A DNA stretch of 31,966 nucleotides from a virus. Under the pieces are notes generated by a model. It saw only the letters and a program-made list of their open reading frames with translations, made no database searches and had not been told where the DNA came from. A program made the position numbers and the translations under genes. How positions within the stretch are numbered: the stretch's first letter is position 1; each line of letters begins with the position of its first letter. Of this stretch, positions 6,320 through 21,658 are shown piece after piece. The stretch spans positions 1-31,966 of the IMG/VR virus record IMGVR_UViG_3300006802_000314. One strand, given 5' to 3'.

Positions 6320-7090
6320 TTATACTGTGAAGTATTGCTCTAACCATTCCTGTTCGGTCATAACGTTCTGTCTGACCAGAGTTTCCATGATCTTACGATC
6401 TTGTTCTGGAATATCTTTCTTGGAATACTTAGATTTACTAGGCGTTGATGACCTAGATGATCCCTCTACAGGGCTTACCTTTCTTCTAGCTTTAGGCTCA
6501 AAGTATTCTTTGAACTCTTGCTTCATTTGCTTTTGTACTTCTACAAATAGCTGAGGATCGTTCTCGCCTACTTTACCAGAACTTAGAAGCTCGTTAGCAA
6601 TACCATCCGCTACGAAGGTCATGTTACGATTAGATCCGTACCAGTCATTAGAGTCTACGAAATCTTCGTATGCCTCATTCATTACAGTCTGTCTACCTAC
6701 CGCAGTCTCTGATTCAGCAGCTTCTCTGCTAGTATCGATAATTTGCTTATCTAGCTCAATGACCTTATCATGGTCTTGATCTTCTAAAGCTATTCGCTTC
6801 TCTTTAGTTAGTTGATCTAGAGCTTGCTTGTAGGCAGTCTGTTGTATCTGCTTAAAGCCCTCTTTTAAATGCTCAATGTCTTTATTACGGTTCTTCAAGG
6901 CTTTCTTAAGGCCCTTCATCTCCTTAATAATCGGTGCTCGTGCTATGTATTCCTCTGCACCTACAAAATCTTTTCCTTCTATACCTTCTGGACTCCAGCC
7001 CATTTCGATAGCACGTTGTTCAGTTTCTGAGAACTCAGGTTCTACTACTACTTCTTCTTCTTGTTCTAGATCTAAAGCTTCCTCGCTCAT
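6320..7090 (-). CDS. Probable capsid scaffolding protein
   Basis: A 256-residue, highly charged, largely helical protein. It has an acidic N-terminus (DLEQEEEVVVEPEFSETE), a long coiled-coil-like middle (KKALKNRNKDIEHLKEGFKQ and following Lys/Glu/Gln heptads to about 125), and a basic C-terminal segment (KSKYSKKDIPEQDRKIM). Acidic-helical-basic organisation and a position between portal and capsid are typical of phage scaffolding proteins, which guide procapsid assembly and leave before maturation. The start overlaps the end of the chaperonin gene by 4 bases. There is no sequence signature as specific as for an enzyme, so the call rests on composition and gene order. Confidence 0.72.
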   Translation of the reverse strand: MSEEALDLEQEEEVVVEPEFSETEQRAIEMGWSPEGIEGKDFVGAEEYIARAPIIKEMKGLKKALKNRNKDIEHLKEGFKQIQQTAYKQALDQLTKEKRIALEDQDHDKVIELDKQIIDTSREAAESETAVGRQTVMNEAYEDFVDSNDWYGSNRNMTFVADGIANELLSSGKVGENDPQLFVEVQKQMKQEFKEYFEPKARRKVSPVEGSSRSSTPSKSKYSKKDIPEQDRKIMETLVRQNVMTEQEWLEQYFTV

Positions 7091-9523: not shown

Positions 9524-10966
9524 TTAATATCCACCTACAGAGCACTTACCGTATAAGAACTCTTCGTCGTCTTCAAATTCTTCAGCCCACTCTTCTTCTG
9601 CTTGTTCTTTCCACGTCAGCCCTGGAATATACTTATCCAGAGTAAGACCTATCCAAGCAAAAGCGTCCACTTGATCGTCGTGAACATCTCGTGGGAATCT
9701 AATTAATTCTTGTTCAAACCCAGGATACCAGTCAGCCTCTTTATCAAAGTAGATACCACCAGCTCTCATACGTGCCTGAATACTACGTGCTCGTACTTGC
9801 TTATCATTGATCGGTGTCTCTGTGTTGATGTTGATAAAGACGCCTTTCTTAAACATCTCGTCCCGTAGGAAAGGTCCTATACTCTTACGTATCATACCCT
9901 CTTCTGCGGTAAATATCTCAGGTGAGTACTTGATCTGAACTTCCATCATTTCGTCGATAATTTGCTTAGCATCCCATCGTCCTCGACGAACATCTACCAC
10001 GTACATATTATTGTCGTAATCGACACCTACAACACAAATGACTGTGAAATCTGCGTGCTCTTTCTGAGATATCGCAAAATCCACGGCAGCGTAGTAGTTG
10101 AGATTTCTATTGTCCAATTCGGACTCATGGTAGTACTTGAAGTCCTTCCGGTTAAAATACGCATTATCCTCATCGATTGGATAGTTGAGGTACTCTTGCG
10201 AATAACCATCTGGCATACCTTGTGAGACGTATGATCTTCGTATGCCCTCAAGCCTCTCCCTGGAAAAGCGTTCCGGCCACAGGATCTCAGAGAAATCCTC
10301 GTTGTGTGCCCTGAATCGTTTAGAGGTCCACTCAGGATCTCCTAAGAGTCTTTCTAAGAGACTATCTAAGTGAAGGATAGTCCCTACTATTCTTATCTGT
10401 CCGTTGTCGCTTAGAGTCGGAACCAGAGCGTTGAAGAACCAGTAACGAAACTTCTCTCTTCGTTCTTGATTCATTACGATCTCGTCGTTCTCTAGATCGT
10501 CCCCGATGATTAAATCGGGTCTTTTGTGATTCCATTTAGTACCACGTAGCTTTTGCTCAGAACCCTTAGCCATGATCCTGAACTTGTGACCATCATTGAA
10601 CTGAACGATGATGTCCTTCTCGTTATCCTTGATAAACTTAGGATTGATACCAAATAGATCTATGATGTCCTGGTTGTCCTGGAGTTCCATCTTGATATCA
10701 CCTAGGAACTGAGTAGCTTGAGTCTCAGTATCTGATACGATGATAACAAAGGATTTCTCTTTGAAAAGGACCGAAGTCAAGACAAAAGAAAGTGTAACTG
10801 ACGTACTCTTAGCATGTCCACGCGGGGCGGCTATAGCTACTAGCTTATCCTCTTCAGAGCACAGCTCCCATAACTCCCTGTGGAACGATGGGATAGGTGC
10901 CGGATTATCTAACTTTGGAAGAAGAAAAGTTCCTACAAAGTTTTCTACCAGCGTAGGATTAAGCAC
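9524..10966 (-). CDS. Terminase large subunit
   Basis: ATP-driven packaging motor and nuclease. Counting from the GTG at 10966, the ATPase has Walker A APRGHAKST (47-55), Walker B DLIIGDDLE (151-159) and a coupling motif IVGTIL (193-198). The RNase H-like nuclease has Asp296 in AAVDFA, VVDVRRG with Asp325, and the C-terminal DDQVDA (430-435). Length is normal for the family. I prefer GTG 10966 because AGGA lies 10 bases upstream; a TTG at 10984 adds six residues but lacks a ribosome binding site. The start overlaps the preceding gene by 8 bases. It acts with the small subunit encoded at 12923-13483. Confidence 0.95.
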   Translation of the reverse strand: MLNPTLVENFVGTFLLPKLDNPAPIPSFHRELWELCSEEDKLVAIAAPRGHAKSTSVTLSFVLTSVLFKEKSFVIIVSDTETQATQFLGDIKMELQDNQDIIDLFGINPKFIKDNEKDIIVQFNDGHKFRIMAKGSEQKLRGTKWNHKRPDLIIGDDLENDEIVMNQERREKFRYWFFNALVPTLSDNGQIRIVGTILHLDSLLERLLGDPEWTSKRFRAHNEDFSEILWPERFSRERLEGIRRSYVSQGMPDGYSQEYLNYPIDEDNAYFNRKDFKYYHESELDNRNLNYYAAVDFAISQKEHADFTVICVVGVDYDNNMYVVDVRRGRWDAKQIIDEMMEVQIKYSPEIFTAEEGMIRKSIGPFLRDEMFKKGVFININTETPINDKQVRARSIQARMRAGGIYFDKEADWYPGFEQELIRFPRDVHDDQVDAFAWIGLTLDKYIPGLTWKEQAEEEWAEEFEDDEEFLYGKCSVGGY

Positions 10967-11381
10967 TGATATAGTATCCTGCAAGGACTACTGTAGCTTC
11001 TGTGTCGCTTGCTACCGCTACTAGGCTCTTAGTCTCACCTGTTTTAATGTTTAGACCTGTAGCTACCAGTCTGTCGTTCTTAAGCATGTCTATATTCAAG
11101 AGATAGCCATCATTTACAGTCCAGTCATGGCTAGGAGCTTGGTATATCTGTATATTCTCTGGAGTAGTAGCAGATCCAAAGTTTCTATCTGATGTTACTA
11201 AGATGTCTGTTAATACGAATGCCTGTCCTGCTTTTCCCGGCACAATCTCATAGATTGTCGAAGTTACTGCCAAGGATACAGAGTAAGTGGTGGAATAATC
11301 AAACTTCCGTATAATAAGCTCTCCCTCGTCTGAAACGAGAGCGTGAGCACTATTACCACCTCTTATCTGTATTGGATACAT
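10959..11381 (-). CDS. Hypothetical virion-type protein, 140 aa
   Basis: The product begins MYPIQIRGGNSAHALVSDEG and is a beta-rich small protein without cysteine motifs or membrane segments. Its N-terminus resembles that of the next upstream gene (both have a Gly/Asn turn, then V-S-x-D-E-G), suggesting that the two belong to one structural family or share an attachment domain. The ATG begins just after the preceding stop and no strong ribosome binding site is seen, so translation is probably coupled. It lies just before the terminase gene. A head-fibre, decoration or adaptor role is possible; the family is not recognised. Confidence 0.7.
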   Translation of the reverse strand: MYPIQIRGGNSAHALVSDEGELIIRKFDYSTTYSVSLAVTSTIYEIVPGKAGQAFVLTDILVTSDRNFGSATTPENIQIYQAPSHDWTVNDGYLLNIDMLKNDRLVATGLNIKTGETKSLVAVASDTEATVVLAGYYISA

Positions 11382-12922: not shown

Positions 12923-13483
12923 TTACTCCCCGTCACCTGGTTCCTTGACGGAACTATTATCTACACTTCCGTTAACGGCTAACTTAACTACTTCACCACC
13001 GCTAAGGTTCATGTTCTCTAGTCTAGCTCTCAAGTCTTTCAGATGCTGATCAGTATCAGTTTTCTCTGAGATAACCGTAGGTTCATTTCGTATGAGTGCT
13101 CTCTTGTCATAAGCTATCGCTAGGATAAGAGCTGTCTGGTAAGCCGTAAGGGGCTTACGTTGTTCAGTACCATCCTTGTACTTGATCAGATCTCCATTCT
13201 CCAATCTGTCGAGAATGAGATCGTTACCTTTCCCTATGACGGAAGTAAGCTTCCGGTCCAGAGAGTTGTTCACTTTCTGTTTAGCAAGCTCACAAGCTTG
13301 AGGAAACCACTTAGTAAGTTTCCAGTACTTCACGGTGTCTTCTGGAAGACCCGTTAATCTAGCACTCTCCCTCAGGGAGTGACCTTCAACGTAGAAGCAG
13401 ACAGCCTTGGCTGCGAGTTCAGGATCAGTCTTTCCTCTCATGCCTGTGGCTTTACGGATTAAGTTAACTAATTCAAGATACAT
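12923..13483 (-). CDS. Probable terminase small subunit
   Basis: A 186-residue protein, first gene of the late operon. An N-terminal helix-turn-helix region (ELAAKAVCFYVEGHSLRESA followed by RLTGLPEDTVKYWK) resembles DNA-recognition domains of small terminases. A central helical segment (DRKLTSVIGKGNDLILDRLE) fits the oligomerisation core, and the acidic C-terminus fits contact with the large subunit. It would bind the packaging site and regulate the motor encoded at 9524-10966. The ribosome binding site GGAG lies 5 bases before the ATG and directly follows a small hairpin. The call rests on domain layout and position. Confidence 0.75.
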   Translation of the reverse strand: MYLELVNLIRKATGMRGKTDPELAAKAVCFYVEGHSLRESARLTGLPEDTVKYWKLTKWFPQACELAKQKVNNSLDRKLTSVIGKGNDLILDRLENGDLIKYKDGTEQRKPLTAYQTALILAIAYDKRALIRNEPTVISEKTDTDQHLKDLRARLENMNLSGGEVVKLAVNGSVDNSSVKEPGDGE

Positions 13484-13492
13484 TACTTCTCC

Positions 13493-13510
13493 ACATGTCG
13501 AAGGACATGT
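13493..13510 (-). promoter_or_regulatory. Hairpin abutting the small-terminase ribosome binding site
   Basis: ACATGTC and GACATGT form a perfect 7-bp stem with a 4-base loop. On the minus-strand RNA it ends immediately before the GGAG of the small-terminase gene. It could modulate ribosome access or mark an RNA-processing point. Confidence 0.45.
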
Positions 13511-13536
13511 TCTTATTAATTCAGGATATTCCTTAT

Positions 13537-13553
13537 GTCCCTCCCAAAGGGAC
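13537..13553 (-). repeat. Hairpin in late-operon leader
   Basis: GTCCCT (13537-13542) pairs with AGGGAC (13548-13553) across a 5-base loop. It lies between the small-terminase start and a longer hairpin at 13579. It lacks a clean U tract on either strand, so a terminator call is weak. Confidence 0.4.
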
Positions 13554-13578
13554 TAGTACTTAGTTTTCTTAGTTTCTT

Positions 13579-13599
13579 ACCATATACTTCGTATATGGT
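13579..13599 (+). terminator. Terminator-like hairpin, tail on plus strand
   Basis: ACCATATAC and GTATATGGT form a perfect 9-bp stem around TTC, followed on the plus strand by TTTACTTTATT. It could stop rightward transcription leaving the late block. On the minus strand it would be one of three tandem leader hairpins and lacks a U tract there. Confidence 0.35.
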
Positions 13600-13606
13600 T
13601 TTACTT

Positions 13607-13800
13607 TATTCTAAGTAATTGATTTTATTATTCTTTTTTATTTCTTTTTAGAATAAAAAAAAATAATATTCCATTATAAAAATTATAATTGAATATTAAT
13701 ATAATATTATATATTATTCTAGGCTCCTTGGGGGAGCCTTATAATTATAAATATATTACTAGTAATTAATATAACAATTATTATTAGACAACAATAATAG
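13607..13800. other. Extremely A/T-rich tract
   Basis: This stretch is almost entirely A and T, with long T then A runs, a TTATTCT/AGAATAA inverted repeat and repeated TAATAT words, interrupted only by the GGCTCC/GGAGCC hairpin. It codes for nothing. Such tracts melt easily and could serve as an origin unwinding element, or as upstream DNA for the divergent promoters. Confidence 0.5.
13721..13739. repeat. GC hairpin inside the A/T-rich tract
   Basis: AGGCTCC (13721-13727) pairs with GGAGCCT (13733-13739) around TTGGG. It is the only GC-rich island in about 200 bases of A/T. Flanks are AT-rich on both sides, so it might act as a weak bidirectional terminator. No pure U tract is present. Confidence 0.4.
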
Positions 13801-13812
13801 CAAAAAGTTCAA
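13783..13812 (-). promoter_or_regulatory. Candidate sigma70-type promoter for the late block
   Basis: On the minus strand TTGAAC (13812-13807) and TCTAAT (13788-13783) are separated by 18 bases and point toward the small-terminase gene. In such AT-rich DNA this could arise by chance. Confidence 0.22.
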
Positions 13813-14340
13813 TTTATTTTGCACTAAAGTTTTCTATGGGGGATAAGATTTCCTTATGAGTTAGTCCTTTTAGAAAATTATTAAAATTGTACATGGTGCT
13901 ATAAATAGAAATATCATGCCCCTAAATTTGCCCCCCACCCCCCTTATCAGAATATACTAATATTCAACATCAGCATATAATAATATTCATACATTAGTAC
14001 ATATGGATATACTTGATGGCATGATACTTGCATCCCCTTTATTGAATCTAAATGCGAATTGTTCTCATTGGCATTAGCGTTCTTTTGTTTATTCTCATAA
14101 GGATTTGTATTTTAGTACATATTAATACTCTAATACTCCCCCCTCAGTACTATATAAGTATATGATTATATTATGATTATCTTATATTCTAATACCCTGA
14201 TTCTCTAATTCACCCACAACCCTCAGTTCATTAGTATATTCTAATACTCTTATGGTACACTTCTTGCATGGTAGTTATGCAAGATATAGGCCAACTATTC
14301 CATCCTCCAGATCACCCCTCAATATCCTAATATTCTAATA
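13801..14340. other. Noncoding region with dyads, C-tracts and octamer repeats
   Basis: No ORF of note on either strand. Contents: two C-runs (13931-13943, C6-A-C6) preceded by CCCC at 13919; a near-perfect dyad AATGCGAAT/ATTGGCATT (14051-14059 and 14067-14075); a perfect dyad TCTTGCAT/ATGCAAGA (14262-14269 and 14277-14284); and copies of TATTCTAA at 14185, 14237 and 14331. These look like regulatory or replication sites rather than decayed genes. Confidence 0.5.
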
Positions 14341-14349
14341 TTCTAATGC

Positions 14350-14378
14350 TTGATTGCTCCCCTTATATATAGTGTAAT
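14350..14378 (+). promoter_or_regulatory. Candidate sigma70 promoter for rightward transcription
   Basis: TTGATT (14350-14355), a 17-base spacer and TGTAAT (14373-14378) fit a sigma70 promoter, with 4 of 6 and 5 of 6 consensus matches. A start near 14386 would transcribe the structured region and then the early genes from 15081. Confidence 0.4.
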
Positions 14379-14385
14379 CCCCGGT

Positions 14386-14872
14386 ATCAAAAATATACGC
14401 TTGTAAGTCGTTGAAAACATTGAAATACTGCAATTAGTTAAATTATTTCACTGCAAGGGGTTGCAAAGGGAAATTGAGAGGTATATACTCTCTTCCATGG
14501 TCAAGATTTACTTGATCAGCCTGAAAGGGCTAGCGGCACCCGGCGAAACGTGGGTACAAGGTAAACCGACCTAGCGGAGCCTTGCGAACTGAATGATTAA
14601 TTCCAATGCTAGGAACGAGTTTTTGCGAAACTCTGGGCATATCAGCCTATTTGAATATTCTAATATTCTAATGTTGGTAGATATGTTTCACGTGGAACAC
14701 GTGTTAATCGGGGGAGTAGGTGCGTAGCTCGAATAAAACATTGGTGCGCAACCGAGTGACTGCCCGGTCGTAACCCCATAAATCGATAGTGTCAGCCTAG
14801 GGGTCAAGCCAACAACGGGATAAAACCCTTGATTGGTACTAATAGGCAAGCTATTGAAACGGAAACTGTTTT
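14386..14872 (+). ncRNA. Candidate structured RNA in the divergent intergenic region
   Basis: A stretch clearly GC-richer than its surroundings, without ORFs, packed with short stems: GAGAG/CTCTC (14476-14492), GGTCAAG/CTTGATC (14499-14517), AGCC/GGCT (14518-14531), ACCC/GGGT (14537-14555), CCTAGC/GCTAGG (14570-14613), GAGTTT/AAACTC (14617-14633), GCTCG/CGAGT (14727-14757), ACCCC/GGGGT (14773-14804), AATAG/CTATT (14841-14855) and AAACGG/CTGTTT (14857-14871). GAAA-type loops and repeated CAGCCT words (14517, 14642, 14792) are also seen. I cannot match it to a known class. It may be one long leader or two separate RNAs divided by the TATTCTAA repeats. Boundaries and strand are inferred. Confidence 0.4.
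14684..14699. promoter_or_regulatory. parS-like centromere site
   Basis: TGTTTCACGTGGAACA matches the bacterial chromosomal parS pattern TGTTtCACGTGaAACA recognised by ParB, with the G variant at position 11 also found in natural sites. A second, overlapping CACGTG lies at 14698-14703 within AACACGTGTT. It sits between the two structured modules, outside any gene. No parA or parB gene is visible in this window, so a host ParB would be the likely reader. Confidence 0.6.
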
Positions 14873-14958
14873 ATATTCTAATATTCTGATTTACTCCAAA
14901 GGTATCATTGTAATTATATATTACTACTTTCTAAACTAGATAGTGTCGAGTGCATATT

Positions 14959-15007
14959 CCAGCCTACTCAGTTAAGTTAGCAAACAGACAAAATACTGAA
15001 TGGCTGG
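14959..15007 (+). promoter_or_regulatory. Leader hairpin 1 upstream of first early gene
   Basis: CCAGCC (14959-14964) pairs with GGCTGG (15002-15007), and after a small internal loop CAGT (14969-14972) pairs with ACTG (14995-14998). It shares bases 15005-15007 with the next stem, so the two hairpins could stack or compete. Confidence 0.45.
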
Positions 15008-15051
15008 GTTATGCAATGTATCCCTGTTCCGGGGGTATATTGTGTAACCTA
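15005..15051 (+). promoter_or_regulatory. Leader hairpin 2, long stem with G-U pairs
   Basis: GGTTATGCAATGTATCCC (15007-15024) pairs along its whole length with GGGGTATATTGTGTAACC (15032-15049). Four of the 18 pairs are G-U wobbles and the loop is 7 bases. One more G-U and one T-A extend it to 15005-15051. Wobble pairs fit RNA rather than DNA function. It ends 30 bases before the ATG at 15081. No U tract follows, so it may be a processing or translational element rather than a terminator. Confidence 0.6.
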
Positions 15052-15080
15052 CTTAAATTTATTTAACTGGAGCAAATAAT

Positions 15081-15587
15081 ATGCCTGTATTCAAAACTTT
15101 AATCACCAAAACACAATTCCATACCCTGCAAAAATCTGTATTATCAAGGGGTCAAACCTTGCGTGACGATATTCAATCCATGATTGATTTTGGATTGGAT
15201 CAATACGTTACGGGGCAGGGAAATACCAATTACCTCACGCAAACACTAAGAACCACTATGCAAATCAAAGCCTTGCCTACTCAAGCGATCAAAGAGTATA
15301 TCAAGGCTCACTGCAACGTAAAAGCTGAAAAGCTCAAGGATGGGGAGTTGGGATTTAAGCGTGACAAATCAATCACTGGCTTTGTAGTTGAGCTGCCTGA
15401 AGTGACATGGTACGACTTTGAAGCCACCAAAAAGGCACAAGCTACCCCCTGCCTGAAGTCTATAATCCAATCAAAAGCTATGGTCACACGCTTTCGCAAG
15501 GCAATCAAGGAAGGCCATTGCGACGATGTAGAGTACGCTAACAAGGTAATAGCCGCAATTGAAGCCATTCAAGTTAACGTAGCATAG
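15081..15587 (+). CDS. First early gene, hypothetical, 168 aa
   Basis: A ribosome binding site (GGAG, 9 bases upstream) precedes the ATG, and the leader carries two hairpins. The product begins MPVFKTLITKTQFHTLQKSV and is mainly helical and rather basic, with no cysteine cluster or membrane segment. The segment KDGELGFKRDKSITGFVVEL is the only strand-rich part; the C-terminus is helical (ANKVIAAIEAIQVNV). As the first rightward gene it is expected to be made early and might act on host or phage nucleic acid. Its codons differ from the neighbours: no CTAG word occurs in 507 bases, although CTAG is frequent elsewhere. Function unknown. Confidence 0.75.
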   Translation: MPVFKTLITKTQFHTLQKSVLSRGQTLRDDIQSMIDFGLDQYVTGQGNTNYLTQTLRTTMQIKALPTQAIKEYIKAHCNVKAEKLKDGELGFKRDKSITGFVVELPEVTWYDFEATKKAQATPCLKSIIQSKAMVTRFRKAIKEGHCDDVEYANKVIAAIEAIQVNVA

Positions 15588-16440: not shown

Positions 16441-16708
16441 TCTAACTACGTACCACGCTGTGGATAGGCGAGTGTATAATGGAGCCTTCTCCTCAGACAT
16501 GACTAAAGAAGCACAGCACACCTCTGCTTTGACTGCAAGGATGTGCAAGACCGAGCCTACTGCTCGTTGTGTGTACTTCCCTATGGAGGGAAAGTTCATG
16601 GTTTTCATTAACTCACCTCCTAAAGAAGTAACATCGAACTTCCATGAAAATAAGCAGGCTTGCATCATCGAAGCCATTAAAGTGTTAGAGGCGAGGGTAT
16701 TACTATGA
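16433..16708 (+). CDS. Small hypothetical protein upstream of ligase cluster, 91 aa
   Basis: Begins MVSLTTYHAVDRRVYNGAFS, contains Cys residues at about 38, 46 and 76 without a metal-binding spacing, and has a strand-rich centre (ARCVYFPMEGKFMVFINSPP). Its end overlaps the start of the COOH-NH2 ligase type 2 gene by 4 bases, so the two are probably translated together. It could be an accessory or even a substrate of the ligase system, but no direct evidence exists. Confidence 0.6.
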   Translation: MVSLTTYHAVDRRVYNGAFSSDMTKEAQHTSALTARMCKTEPTARCVYFPMEGKFMVFINSPPKEVTSNFHENKQACIIEAIKVLEARVLL

Positions 16709-17478
16709 TAAGCGTAGTCGAGACAATTGGACACGATGCCGAGGTATTCTTAGTAGATCAGACGGGCAAGTATATCTCAGCAGAGGGGTTGATTGGTGGT
16801 ACTAAAGACCACCCTCTTATGTTAGATCATCGTAATGGTGCCCTGCAAGAAGACAACGTAATGATGGAGCTGAACATTCGTCCAGCCCGTACACCTGATG
16901 AGTTCGTTGACTTCACGCAACAGACGTTACGCTCTGCGTATAGAGAGTTTATTGAACCTAATGGATTGAACATTCGCTTCGATGCTTCGGGTGACTTCGA
17001 TGACGACCAGCTAGGTACGGCACAATCGACGGCAAGTGGATGCGCTTCCGACTTTAGATTAGGATCTTACGACGCTAACGAACGAATAGATTTATCTAAT
17101 ACTAATACACGGTACTGTGGTGGACACCTACACTTTGGCTTAACCTTACCTAAGGTATACAGACGTGAGGTACTAGCCCGCGCTGCTGATATATTCAATG
17201 GCATCATTGATATGTATGATACTGATGAGGTACGTAAGCGTGTATATGGTGCTATCGCCACTAGACACAGGCCTAAGCCTTACGGTGTCGAGTACCGTAC
17301 TATGTCTAACTGGTGGATGAAGTCACCTACACTTGCTAGATTCGTGGCAACGATCGGCTTTGCTATAGGCAATGATTTAGTGCTGCATCATACACGTAGG
17401 GCTGGAACAGAGGTCTTTCTTGCCCGTTATGGTATCACAGCACCAGACATTAACAAACTAGAGGAGTGGAATCTATGA
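16705..17478 (+). CDS. COOH-NH2 ligase type 2 (phiEco32-like amidoligase)
   Basis: A 257-residue member of the glutamine-synthetase-fold carboxylate-amine ligases described in phiEco32-like phages. Visible motifs are GHDAEVFL (9-16), SAEGLIGGTK (25-34), QEDNVMMELNI (48-58) with acidic metal ligands, and GGHLHFGL (139-146) with His141 and His143. Late conserved residues include GVEYRTMSNWW. Such enzymes are predicted to join a carboxyl to an amine using ATP. It opens a run of ligase genes up to 22269, each coupled by short overlaps. The family call is firm; the substrate is unknown. Confidence 0.82.
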   Translation: MISVVETIGHDAEVFLVDQTGKYISAEGLIGGTKDHPLMLDHRNGALQEDNVMMELNIRPARTPDEFVDFTQQTLRSAYREFIEPNGLNIRFDASGDFDDDQLGTAQSTASGCASDFRLGSYDANERIDLSNTNTRYCGGHLHFGLTLPKVYRREVLARAADIFNGIIDMYDTDEVRKRVYGAIATRHRPKPYGVEYRTMSNWWMKSPTLARFVATIGFAIGNDLVLHHTRRAGTEVFLARYGITAPDINKLEEWNL

Positions 17479-18170
17479 CACAACTAGCAAAGATATCGTC
17501 CGACGATGCTGCTCGTTATTACAATGGTAGTATCCTAGTCAACAAGGATGGAGAGCCTGTCTACATAGTAGAGGTATACAGAGAGGTCGATGCTGATGAT
17601 GATGATGATGAGCATGAGAATACCTTTGTATGTAGATATAAGGAGTTGAACAAGGCAGGTACTGAGTGGGAACCAGAGAGGGAGGGACACCTGCCTGTTG
17701 ATATATTCGTTGAGTACATGCCTGAGGTAGGATGCGTAGACCTAGGTATATACAGTACATTCTACACCAGAGTACCACGTAGACAGTGGACTAAAGCGTA
17801 CACCTCTAGCAATATCACTAGCTTTAATCCATTTAGCACTGAGCTAGCTCTCTGTCAAATGCGTGAGTTCAATAAGATGAGCGCAGCAGTAGTTAGGCAG
17901 ATATATAACCCTTCATTCCCATCACCTAAACAAATCATTAAGGAGATCATGCTAGGTGTTCGTATTTCTGGTGCTGTCAACAGTGATATAATGATTGGAG
18001 CACATCAATTCAATGAGAAGTATCTAAGTGTGTACTACAAAGACATGTATGTTGGTCGCATTCATCCTAATAAGAGGGTGTTTAGACCTGAGAAAGAAGC
18101 TGACTTTCTATTAGACAACATCGTTCCTTATCTAGATGTAGAGGGGGTATCTAACTATGCAACTCGTTGA
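17475..18170 (+). CDS. Unknown protein inside the amidoligase cluster, 231 aa
   Basis: I use the ATG at 17475, which overlaps the ligase stop as ATGA and has GAGGAG 8 bases upstream. The product has an acidic run near residue 40 (DADDDDDEHE), a strand-rich N-terminal half (VYIVEVYREV, NTFVCRYKEL), and a C-terminal half with KQIIKEIMLGVRISGAVNSD and YLSVYYKDMYVGRIHPNKRV. It overlaps the next amidoligase start by 14 bases. Its place between two ligases argues for a direct role in the pathway, perhaps as a partner or scaffold. I do not recognise a family. Confidence 0.75.
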   Translation: MTQLAKISSDDAARYYNGSILVNKDGEPVYIVEVYREVDADDDDDEHENTFVCRYKELNKAGTEWEPEREGHLPVDIFVEYMPEVGCVDLGIYSTFYTRVPRRQWTKAYTSSNITSFNPFSTELALCQMREFNKMSAAVVRQIYNPSFPSPKQIIKEIMLGVRISGAVNSDIMIGAHQFNEKYLSVYYKDMYVGRIHPNKRVFRPEKEADFLLDNIVPYLDVEGVSNYATR

Positions 18171-19485
18171 TGTAACTAGAAGACCACCAGACACACGTAA
18201 GTATTCGGTTCACTCTAGCGAGGCTAATGAACTGCCATTACCTAGGTGTCACATGGGTATTGAGATAGAGGCAGAGGGATTCTATAATGGGTATCCTGAA
18301 CCCCTTGGCTGGACGTGTAAGGAGGATGGCAGTCTACGTAACTATGGCAAGGAGTTCGTTACTGAGCCTGTGTTCGGTGATGATCTAATAGATAGCCTTA
18401 CGAGTATAGAGGAGGCACTCAATGATCCTACATACAGGCCAGAGTACAACTCTCGTACTGGACTACACGTACACATAGATATGCGTGATGTGCCCTCCAC
18501 TGACATACTACATAAGTTCTTACTTACGTATGTAATACTAGAGGACTTGTTGTTTGCGTACTGTGGTAACAACAGAGATAATAATATATATTGCTTGCCC
18601 ATGCGTAAGGCTTTGTGTCCTCTGTTTGAGATCATCAGTGCCTACCATGTTAATAAGCCTATGTCTTACGAAGAGCTTATAAATAGATACAACAAGTACA
18701 CGCCTATGAATATCAATACCATGAGTACCTTTGGTACTGCTGAGTTTAGGCTACACTATGGCACGCACGATAAGGATACTATTATTAAATGGATCAAGAT
18801 AGTACAGTCTATTAAGAAGTTTGCAATGGAAACTAGCCTAACGGCACGTACTATTGTAAATAAGTACGTGCGTAGTAGACAGGCATTTGTACGTGAGGTA
18901 CTGCCCCTTGATTTTGTTGAGCCATATATCAATAGTGATACGTGTAACAATGGTACAGTAGTACGTGCCCTTATGTTATCTAATCATAACAAGACTACTA
19001 AACTAAGGGATAAGGCTATAGAACGCAAGAATAAGTATGCTAATTACTCTAGTAAGATGTTCAATAACATAGTTACCAAAATATGTGATAGTTGTAACAC
19101 ATCGAGGGAGACTGAGAGTACTTCCGATACTATAGATGCTAACTCAGTGGCTACGGACGTTAGTAATATAATGTCCTGTCCTGCCTTTGGTGCAATTATG
19201 GATAATCTACTAGATATTAGATTAAATAATGACAGACCTATTACGTCACACAGTCTTATGAGCTATATTGAGAGAAACTACAGTTACCCACCTAACGTAA
19301 CTCATGGACTCGCCCTTATATGTGCCTCTATGACTGATTGGCAGCCTGGCCAGAACATGGACGCCACCAGAATTGTTGACTGGGGTCTTCTACCTAGATT
19401 AAGAAATAAAGTGTCTTTACTGCTGCTGATGGATCCTAGTTGGATATCTTACATCGGCTATGATTTTATTAACATACCAACCTGA
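18157..19485 (+). CDS. Amidoligase type 1 (COOH-NH2 ligase)
   Basis: A 442-residue protein whose first 240 residues carry the amidoligase (PF12224-like) pattern: MGIEIEAEG (33-41; Glu36 and Glu38 as likely metal ligands), EDGSLRNYGKEFVTEP (56-71), GLHVHIDM (102-109; His104 and His106) and FRLHYGTHD (about 197). Residues after 240 have no recognisable domain; they contain two cysteines in CDSCNTS and a helical tail. It is predicted to form amide or isopeptide bonds with ATP. The pairing with a type 2 ligase, a glutamine amidotransferase, an ATP-grasp enzyme and a cyclotransferase-like protein marks a peptide-modification cluster. The target is unknown. Confidence 0.8.
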   Translation: MQLVDVTRRPPDTRKYSVHSSEANELPLPRCHMGIEIEAEGFYNGYPEPLGWTCKEDGSLRNYGKEFVTEPVFGDDLIDSLTSIEEALNDPTYRPEYNSRTGLHVHIDMRDVPSTDILHKFLLTYVILEDLLFAYCGNNRDNNIYCLPMRKALCPLFEIISAYHVNKPMSYEELINRYNKYTPMNINTMSTFGTAEFRLHYGTHDKDTIIKWIKIVQSIKKFAMETSLTARTIVNKYVRSRQAFVREVLPLDFVEPYINSDTCNNGTVVRALMLSNHNKTTKLRDKAIERKNKYANYSSKMFNNIVTKICDSCNTSRETESTSDTIDANSVATDVSNIMSCPAFGAIMDNLLDIRLNNDRPITSHSLMSYIERNYSYPPNVTHGLALICASMTDWQPGQNMDATRIVDWGLLPRLRNKVSLLLLMDPSWISYIGYDFINIPT

Positions 19486-19499
19486 AGAGGAATCTTAAT

Positions 19500-20879
19500 A
19501 TGTGTGGAATTATAGGCTTAATCAATGGGGATAAATCTCCTTACAAGGCAGCAGATATCTTCCAAGAGCTGTTATATGTAGATGCTCTACGAGGCGAAGA
19601 TTCTACTGGTGTATTTAGAGTATCGAGAACTGGCAGATCAGTAGATATTCGTAAACGTGCCGTCAATGCTGCCGAGTTCCTCGATAGCAAGAAGAGCTTT
19701 AACTTTGTCAATAACTTGGGAGGGTATAAGTTTGTTATCGGACATAATCGTAAAGCTACTATGGGTTCTGTTAATAATAGTACCGCTCATCCTTTTAAGT
19801 ATAAACATATTACTATGGTTCACAATGGGACTATTACTAACAAAGACGAACTCGCTAATGGGTGTGATGTTGACTCGCTTGCGATCTGTAAGTCATTAGC
19901 GGATCGTGGTACTGATGTCACTCTAAAGGAGATTGACGGAGCGTACGCACTTATCTGGTACGATGCACAATTAGACTCTTTGTTTGTAACACGCAACGAC
20001 CAACGCCCTCTACATATGGCTAAGTTAAAGAACTCTGACTCTATTATGATAGCGTCAGAGGCAGCGATGTTAGATCTCGTAGCCAACCGTAACCATGTAC
20101 AGATCCATGAACCACAGATGATCAAGGTGGAGACTTTGTACGAGTTTAACTCTACTAAAACTAAACCTCACGTAAGTACATACTTTAACGAGGGTACACC
20201 TTATTGGAAGAAACCCTCATATAGCCCTGCTAGTAATCATGGTTGGCATGGATACAATGCTGGAGGGTCACAGTCACCTAGTTACACTAGCGGTTTTCAG
20301 TATGTATCTATCCAAGCTGTTGTGTGGGAACCACACCCCAATAATGAACACATGGGAGATATGTACTGCAGTTCTACGTGGAAGAACTATGAGGACGCAG
20401 ACATTGTAGTTAAAGGCGTACCTAAAAATCTCATGCTACCATCGAAGGAATACCGTGGTCGTATCGTAACCTTGAGTAATATAGGAGGTCAGTGTAAGTT
20501 AGAGTTATTATGGACTGATGTTAGTTGCACTAACAGAACTATTCCTGTCAATGAACAGTTCTCACGTGATGAAGTGTACGAGAGTATACCCTCACTTAAA
20601 GAGGAGCCAAAGGAAGAGCCAGATAATATAGAAGAGGAGGAAGCGAACGCACAGTACACACAGTTCACTGAAGCAGACACACTACCTATGTACCAAGGGC
20701 CGGGACTTAATCTCATCACAAGAGATGCATTCGACACCTTCACTAAGCATGGGTGTAGCAACTGCGGTTGTTCTCTTCCTCATAACGAGTCTACTAATGT
20801 GAGGTGGGATGATTATAACAATCCATTCTGTTCTGACTGTGCTGAACTAAGCCATGTTAAGATACGTAACCTTCACTAA
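19500..20879 (+). CDS. Class II glutamine amidotransferase with C-terminal zinc ribbon
   Basis: The N-terminal ~220 residues are an Ntn-hydrolase glutaminase: MCGIIGLI with nucleophile Cys2, RGEDSTG (31-37), GHNRKAT (81-87), HNG (108-110) and CDVDS (122-126). It would release ammonia from glutamine for a ligase partner. No asparagine synthetase or GlmS sugar domain follows. A region of about 170 residues is acidic and low-complexity in part (KEEPKEEPDNIEEEEANA), and the end has a zinc ribbon (Cys419, Cys422, Cys444, Cys447). The ribbon might recruit a partner or nucleic acid. Strong ribosome binding site (GAGGA) before the ATG. Confidence 0.88.
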   Translation: MCGIIGLINGDKSPYKAADIFQELLYVDALRGEDSTGVFRVSRTGRSVDIRKRAVNAAEFLDSKKSFNFVNNLGGYKFVIGHNRKATMGSVNNSTAHPFKYKHITMVHNGTITNKDELANGCDVDSLAICKSLADRGTDVTLKEIDGAYALIWYDAQLDSLFVTRNDQRPLHMAKLKNSDSIMIASEAAMLDLVANRNHVQIHEPQMIKVETLYEFNSTKTKPHVSTYFNEGTPYWKKPSYSPASNHGWHGYNAGGSQSPSYTSGFQYVSIQAVVWEPHPNNEHMGDMYCSSTWKNYEDADIVVKGVPKNLMLPSKEYRGRIVTLSNIGGQCKLELLWTDVSCTNRTIPVNEQFSRDEVYESIPSLKEEPKEEPDNIEEEEANAQYTQFTEADTLPMYQGPGLNLITRDAFDTFTKHGCSNCGCSLPHNESTNVRWDDYNNPFCSDCAELSHVKIRNLH

Positions 20880-20890
20880 AGGAGCTTAAT

Positions 20891-21658
20891 ATGCGACCGA
20901 TTATATACCCATACAAGATGGGGTCAGGTAGTGCTAGGGCATTAGCAGATAGTCTTAGCCAACTCCGTTCTAAGCGTGTCTATCCTGACCGTAAGTATAA
21001 GCCCTTCAGTAATCATTTAATCATTAACTGGGGCAACACAGAGCTTCCTAGCTGGTACGTGAGTGGGATGCAGTGGATAAATCATCCAGAGCCTGTAAGT
21101 AGAGCAAGTAATAAACTAACCACTCTTGATTATCTACAAGGACACGAGGTAGATATCCCTGAGTTTACTACTAGACCTGATGAAGCTGAGAGCTGGCTGA
21201 GAGGTGGTGAGTTGGTAGTAGCACGTACCTTACTACGAGCTAATTCAGGGCGTGGTATCGTACTGATGGGGACAGATGATCAGCTAGTACGGGCACCGTT
21301 ATATACTAAATACTTTAAGAAAATGTACGAGTACAGGATACACGTATTAGGGGGGCAAGTCATTGATATACAACATAAAAGGAGATCATACTCAACAGCA
21401 GATGCAGACGTTAATTACCAGATCCGCAACCGTGATAACGGTTGGATATTTGCAAGAAACAATATGGCTGATCCAGATCAGTCTGTCCTTACTAATGCGG
21501 TATCCGCAGTAGAGGGCTTGGGTCTAGACTTTGGTGCTGTAGATGTGGCATACAATGATCACTACAAAAAGGCTTGTGTCTTTGAGGTGAATACAGCGCC
21601 GGGTCTTGAGGGAACTACTCTTGAGAAATATTGTCAAAGCCTTACTAACCTACTATAG
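20891..21658 (+). CDS. ATP-grasp ligase
   Basis: A 255-residue protein with ATP-grasp features: a nucleotide-binding segment LVVARTLLRANSGRGIVLMG (the glycine-rich loop), YEYRIHVLGGQVIDIQHKRR (a central strand with basic residues), DFGAVDVAYN, and the metal-binding FEVNTAPGLEGTT with Glu232 and Asn234. Such enzymes activate a carboxylate as acyl phosphate and couple it to an amine or thiol. Short ATP-grasp proteins of this type occur beside amidoligases and class II amidotransferases in phiEco32-like phages. It has a good ribosome binding site (AGGAG) 11 bases after the upstream gene. The substrate is not predictable. Confidence 0.85.
   Translation: MRPIIYPYKMGSGSARALADSLSQLRSKRVYPDRKYKPFSNHLIINWGNTELPSWYVSGMQWINHPEPVSRASNKLTTLDYLQGHEVDIPEFTTRPDEAESWLRGGELVVARTLLRANSGRGIVLMGTDDQLVRAPLYTKYFKKMYEYRIHVLGGQVIDIQHKRRSYSTADADVNYQIRNRDNGWIFARNNMADPDQSVLTNAVSAVEGLGLDFGAVDVAYNDHYKKACVFEVNTAPGLEGTTLEKYCQSLTNLL

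Follow-up and report, generated by a model that had tools for sequence, protein, structure and literature searches.

A chromosomal-type parS site in the control region of a podovirus-like phage, putatively read by host ParB

The window described here is a viral record of 31,966 bases, a linear IMG/VR fragment of a podovirus-like phage, which carries a single parS-like site in the control region between its operons. The site is best read as an orphan chromosomal-type parS on a phage in which neither an integrase nor parAB genes were detected. It is likely that host ParB binds this site and that selection keeps it, as far as comparison of sequences can tell; this claim does not extend to any one payoff for the phage.

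The parS-like site and its surroundings

The genes of the window include an SU10-type portal, a phrog_38 terminase, an amidoligase/ATP-grasp cassette, a DnaB-like helicase and a family A DNA polymerase. They are arranged in two divergent operons: the late operon (terS/terL/portal) on the minus strand, extending up to 13483, and the early (replication) operon on the plus strand, starting from 15081. The parS-like site is located in the noncoding region between them (Table 1).

Table 1. Features of the window discussed in the text
Feature	Position	Strand	Remarks
parS-like site TGTTTCACGTGGAACA, near-palindrome	14684..14699	+	sequence scan; identical 16-mer in relatives and host chromosomes
second CACGTG	14698..14703	.	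shares two bases with the parS-like site
noncoding divergent control region, late/early operons	13484..15080	.	free of ORFs of at least 60 aa; 1.6 kb
GC-rich island	14400..14900	+	GC-rich at about 14450-14850; AT-rich flanks; folds better than shuffles
first early gene, function unassigned	15081..15587	+	phrog_14737; begins 381 bp past the parS-like site
small terminase subunit-like gene, first of the late operon	12923..13483	-	phrog_4102, E=3.5e-4
large terminase, query for relatives	9524..10984	-	phrog_38, E=1e-93

The preliminary description had reported a perfect 16-bp parS match, deviating from the commonest form in a natural way, placed in noncoding DNA of the control region and overlapped by a second CACGTG. 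The match is confirmed, since TGTTTCACGTGGAACA is one mismatch away from the consensus parS TGTTTCACGTGAAACA and agrees with the 16-bp consensus TGTTYCACGTGRAACA of chromosomal-type sites. The deviation is of the natural type as claimed, the asymmetric TGTTTCACGTGGAACA being a common parS of host chromosomes; the word perfect was slightly too strong, because this form is not a perfect palindrome. The noncoding location and the two-base overlap with the second CACGTG were both found as described. Within the 32-kb window, TGTTTCACGTGGAACA is the sole site at up to three mismatches, and shuffled sequences average 0.12 such matches.

The second CACGTG is probably incidental. The extended 20-mer that includes it, TGTTYCACGTGGAACACGTG, is rare in viral contigs (2 matches, against 80 stretches in bacterial genome contigs of many phyla), and the arrangement is flipped in the Alcaligenes phage vB_Af_QDWS535, where the parS-like site is also adjoined by CACGTG but on the opposite side relative to the operons. 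The 20-mer was rejected as a functional unit on account of this flip, and its match in Castellaniella is a chromosomal parS.

Identity with the parS of bacterial chromosomes

The exact 16-mer TGTTTCACGTGGAACA was found in Castellaniella, Schauerella and a Burkholderiaceae MAG. In Castellaniella defragrans (L338), presumably a member of the Alcaligenaceae, the extended form is located where mnmG begins, within an mnmG-rsmG-parA-parB cluster, the gene names having been assigned by reading the translations. When 61 genomes of the Castellaniella family were scanned, 54 carried the parS pattern, with 1-6 copies in each, and none matched the reversed control. Judged by its letters, the window site is a genuine host-type parS. 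It shares with the chromosomal sites of ParABS systems the 16-bp near-palindromic form and the CACGTG core, and its identical form has a copy near parAB in Castellaniella. It differs from them in its location, since it sits in a phage control region, away from oriC and parAB; any ParB acting on it would have to be that of the host.

Recurrence among terminase relatives

Of the named relatives for which a host is known, QDWS535, a phage of Alcaligenes faecalis, is the closest; its terminase is about 50% identical to that of the window, and the gene order is the same. It carries TGTTCCACGTGGAACA at 47934-47949 in the syntenic control region between divergent operons, and the distance to the first early gene is 335 bp there compared to 381 bp in the window; the site is overlapped by a lone annotated ORF, hypothetical and 55 aa long. 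Among 50 other records found with the terminase, the 16-mer identical to TGTTTCACGTGGAACA is present in L035, L033 and L038, the last two being near-identical around their site. In L035 it occupies one of the gaps that separate the first early genes, on the upstream side of the terminase genes, and in L033/L038 it is flanked by genes for an SSB-like protein and an exonuclease; a second CACGTG is missing from all three. When the window, QDWS535, L035 and L033/L038 are aligned, the motif alone aligns and the flanks do not. At the DNA level, the control regions of relatives lacking the site could not be aligned with that of the window, a DNA search of named phages with the window or the island gave no match, and viral contigs contained no relatives when the first early gene, either that of the window or its QDWS535 counterpart, was used as a query.

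The presence of the site across the terminase relatives is patchy. No site at up to two mismatches was found in 44 of the 50 other relatives, including the closest one, L002, with 70% terminase identity, and the site is therefore either dispensable or host-dependent. One further site, TGTTTCACATGAAACA in L075, was discounted as it lies inside a long ORF. The recurrence nevertheless goes beyond that of permuted words: over 1.24 Mb the parS word gives 4 matches, while out of 3359 permutations of the half-site letters 3354 give none, four give one and one gives three. The preliminary interpretation, which made a host-segregation hijack conditional on conservation in relatives, is supported in part: the syntenic copy in QDWS535, the identical sites in L035, L033 and L038 and the permutation result speak for it, and the majority of relatives without the site speaks against strict conservation.

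Two side observations may be added. The related phage L007 contains six copies of the perfect palindrome TAGTCTAGACTA at 1214-2827, several of them just 5′ of small early genes; this array, likely of operators, was seen in L007 alone among the fetched loci. Loci L002-L081 strongly avoid palindromic 6-mers, with CACGTG observed 34 times versus 193 expected from base composition.

Orphan sites in unrelated phages and viral contigs

A second clade, found with the terminase of L177 and probably of freshwater origin as inferred from the sources of its contigs, is unrelated to the window: the terminase identity is 19%, over part of the protein only. In this clade parS occurs in 43 of 80 loci. At up to two mismatches, 112 sites were counted, of which 99 are perfect, 13 have one mismatch and none has two, and the reversed control gave 0. 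In L177 and its relatives L427-L503, perfect TGTTTCACGTGAAACA sites are grouped in arrays of 2-5 close to the terminase genes; in L436, the small terminase gene is on one side of the sites and the large one on the other. Across 10 pairs from the clade, the sites are 98% identical where the flanks are about 69% identical.

A similar excess is observed in viral contigs in general. The exact parS occurs in at least 120 stretches, compared with 10 (a complete count) for the near-miss TTGTYCACGTGRACAA, in which the core is kept and the arms are scrambled. Among the matches listed, 54 of 147 parS sites are noncoding versus 3 of 120 for CAGCTG control words (Fisher p=3e-13), as called by one crude gene caller for both sets, and several sites within one locus were found in 17 cases for parS and in none for the controls. 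The CAGCTG control was used for these two comparisons, of coding fraction and multiplicity, only. Several of the multi-site loci contain terminase, portal or phage polymerase genes.

Individual loci show particular arrangements. In L110, a viral contig of 77 kb, two parS copies stand in direct tandem with no spacer at 6863-6894, with a third 226 bp upstream. L328 has two copies at 64-129, inside the initial 130 bp of the contig, and its large genes resemble, by eye, a phi29-type DNA polymerase and a packaging ATPase.

Absence of phage ParABS genes and integrase

The earlier remark that no parA or parB gene is seen agrees with the searches, as the window record, a 32-kb fragment, yielded no ParA gene and no ParB by its N-terminal (ParB_N) or HTH (HTH_ParB) domain; absence from an entire phage genome is seen in relatives only. 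QDWS535 has no ParB_N match, and none of ParB_N, HTH_ParB or AAA_31 was matched in QDWS535 and the relatives, which sets them apart from phages of the P1/RedRock type with a ParABS of their own. HTH_ParB and ParA searches were negative in 20 records from the window group and the freshwater clade, as was the ParB_N search in 20 records of that clade. Among 50 viral records chosen for noncoding or multi-site parS, 49 had no ParB_N and one was positive; the PF02195 profile (ParB_N) may miss divergent ParB. A ParABS system of the phage's own was rejected as an explanation on these negative searches, with the reservation that most records are fragments, so that failure to find ParB does not prove that the phage lacks it.

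Searches of the window, QDWS535, L035, L033 and L038 revealed no integrase, so that inheritance as a prophage is not the obvious reason for carrying parS. The 13 freshwater-clade records examined had none either.

Putative recruitment of host ParB

ParB is a CTP-binding protein that loads at parS, closes into a clamp and then spreads (PMC12704722). Upon entry of the phage DNA, the CTP-dependent clamp of host ParB would load at the phage parS and slide outward over the control region. The host ParA gradient, and perhaps also SMC, could then act on the ParB-coated genome as a cargo, in the manner of plasmids given parS. The likeliest payoff would be the positioning or segregation of the phage genome, either while it replicates or while it is carried. 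Competition with the chromosome for ParB would be a built-in side effect once the phage genomes increase in number, and the binding may also serve local gene control. In our ranking of the possible payoffs, positioning or segregation is the first choice, followed by gene control and then titration.

That a phage with a host parS should recruit host ParB is inferred from three precedents. First, in Caulobacter a plasmid-borne parS lowers viability according to its affinity for ParB, which was attributed to the plasmid being segregated instead of the chromosome (PMC5815017). Second, when phage lambda is engineered to carry parS, CFP-ParB coats its DNA in infected cells while replication and lysis persist (PMC13190303). 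Here too ParB assembles on parS-bearing phage DNA, but the case is one of engineered imaging with an introduced parS and CFP-ParB, whereas the window site is natural, with chromosomal ParB as the putative reader. The third precedent is SGI1, which carries mimics of the IncC parS and exploits the ParABS of the IncC plasmid (PMC10954446). Like the window phage, in so far as its fragment tells, SGI1 is a parasitic element without cognate parAB that bears the parS of another replicon; it differs in that a plasmid parS is mimicked and that ParB binding and self-stabilisation were demonstrated, while the chromosomal parS of the window phage is known from its sequence. P1 and the mycobacteriophage RedRock (PMC7157519) also have parS on phage DNA, but in these phages ParA, ParB and the cognate parS sites all belong to the phage itself. 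As to the number of sites, in Pseudomonas aeruginosa any one of the four oriC-proximal parS sites is enough for chromosome partitioning (PMC4368675).

The occurrence of orphan parS in unrelated phages means that phages may commonly borrow the host machinery of chromosome segregation. It is rather probable, though somewhat less so than binding at the window site, that such sites are widespread and selectively kept in phages in which neither ParABS nor integrase genes are found, from the single sites of the podovirus clade to the arrays of 2-5 between the terminase genes of the freshwater clade, and that they plug into host segregation. A literature search covering few subscription journals and no preprints yielded no account of phages with an orphan parS of the chromosomal type.

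For the most part, ParABS is viewed as serving the housekeeping of chromosomes and plasmids. Should phages lacking parAB keep a host-type parS under selection, host ParB would be a phage host factor. Phage genomes would then be expected to be coated by ParB, parB or its CTP state to affect infection, and a conflict over segregation to arise, all of which could be tested with the isolated phage QDWS535 and its known host. The parS variant carried by a phage could also help to predict its host.

Alternative explanations

Gene control as the purpose of binding, with host ParB spreading over the divergent promoters to delay or time early or late transcription, is the alternative that survives best, although we consider it unlikely. 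It would suit the window and QDWS535, whose sites precede the first early gene by 335-381 bp within a divergent control region, but the sites of L033/L038 and of the freshwater clade lie in other gaps. A bias of parS towards divergent promoters was rejected, as divergent gaps hold 13% of the sites across viral loci and 21% of the intergenic bases.

Still less likely is interference, in which parS, amplified with the phage, would draw ParB away from the chromosome and so block segregation or division of the host. The viability cost of plasmid-borne parS in Caulobacter, which tracks ParB affinity and reaches about 1000-fold at most (PMC5815017), is in line with it, and phage copies would exceed the 1-6 copies of the pattern per host genome. 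A lytic phage kills its host regardless, which makes the gain doubtful, and at the start of infection a single site would take up little ParB.

A phage-encoded DNA-binding protein unrelated to ParB, reading the site as an operator, is improbable. Many early genes have no assigned function and could supply such a protein, but repeated convergence would be needed across the unrelated gene content of the window clade, the L177 clade and the phi29-like L328, and the domain searches gave no candidate related to ParB or ParA. The next alternative, that the likeness to parS is an accident of structured RNA, is no better placed. The CACGTG-GAA-CACGTG segment can form a hairpin in a noncoding transcript, and this hairpin is present in the predicted fold of the island at 14400-14900 (z=-3.8 on the plus strand, -2.4 on the minus strand). 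The explanation was rejected because, however well the island folds, the 16-mer alone is common to the phages, L035 and L033/L038 having no second CACGTG; moreover, no Rfam family matches the island, and the exact host parS would have to be a coincidence. Chance or captured host DNA, which a lone 16-mer in one fragment and missing from most relatives might suggest, is very improbable and largely excluded for the phage group by the syntenic QDWS535 copy, the unalignable flanks, the permutation null and the noncoding enrichment.

Other features of the window

The island at 14400-14900 is itself a candidate large noncoding RNA. Seven copies of ATATTCTAAT are present at 14184-14882, all on the plus strand and some paired 8 bp apart, which are possibly phage promoter or operator repeats. 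A terminator scan indicated a 20-pair stem-loop at 15005-15051, just 5′ of the first early gene. Further downstream, the cassette at 16705-21658 consists of a COOH-NH2 ligase, an amidoligase, a glutamine amidotransferase and an ATP-grasp gene, and is found in QDWS535 as well.
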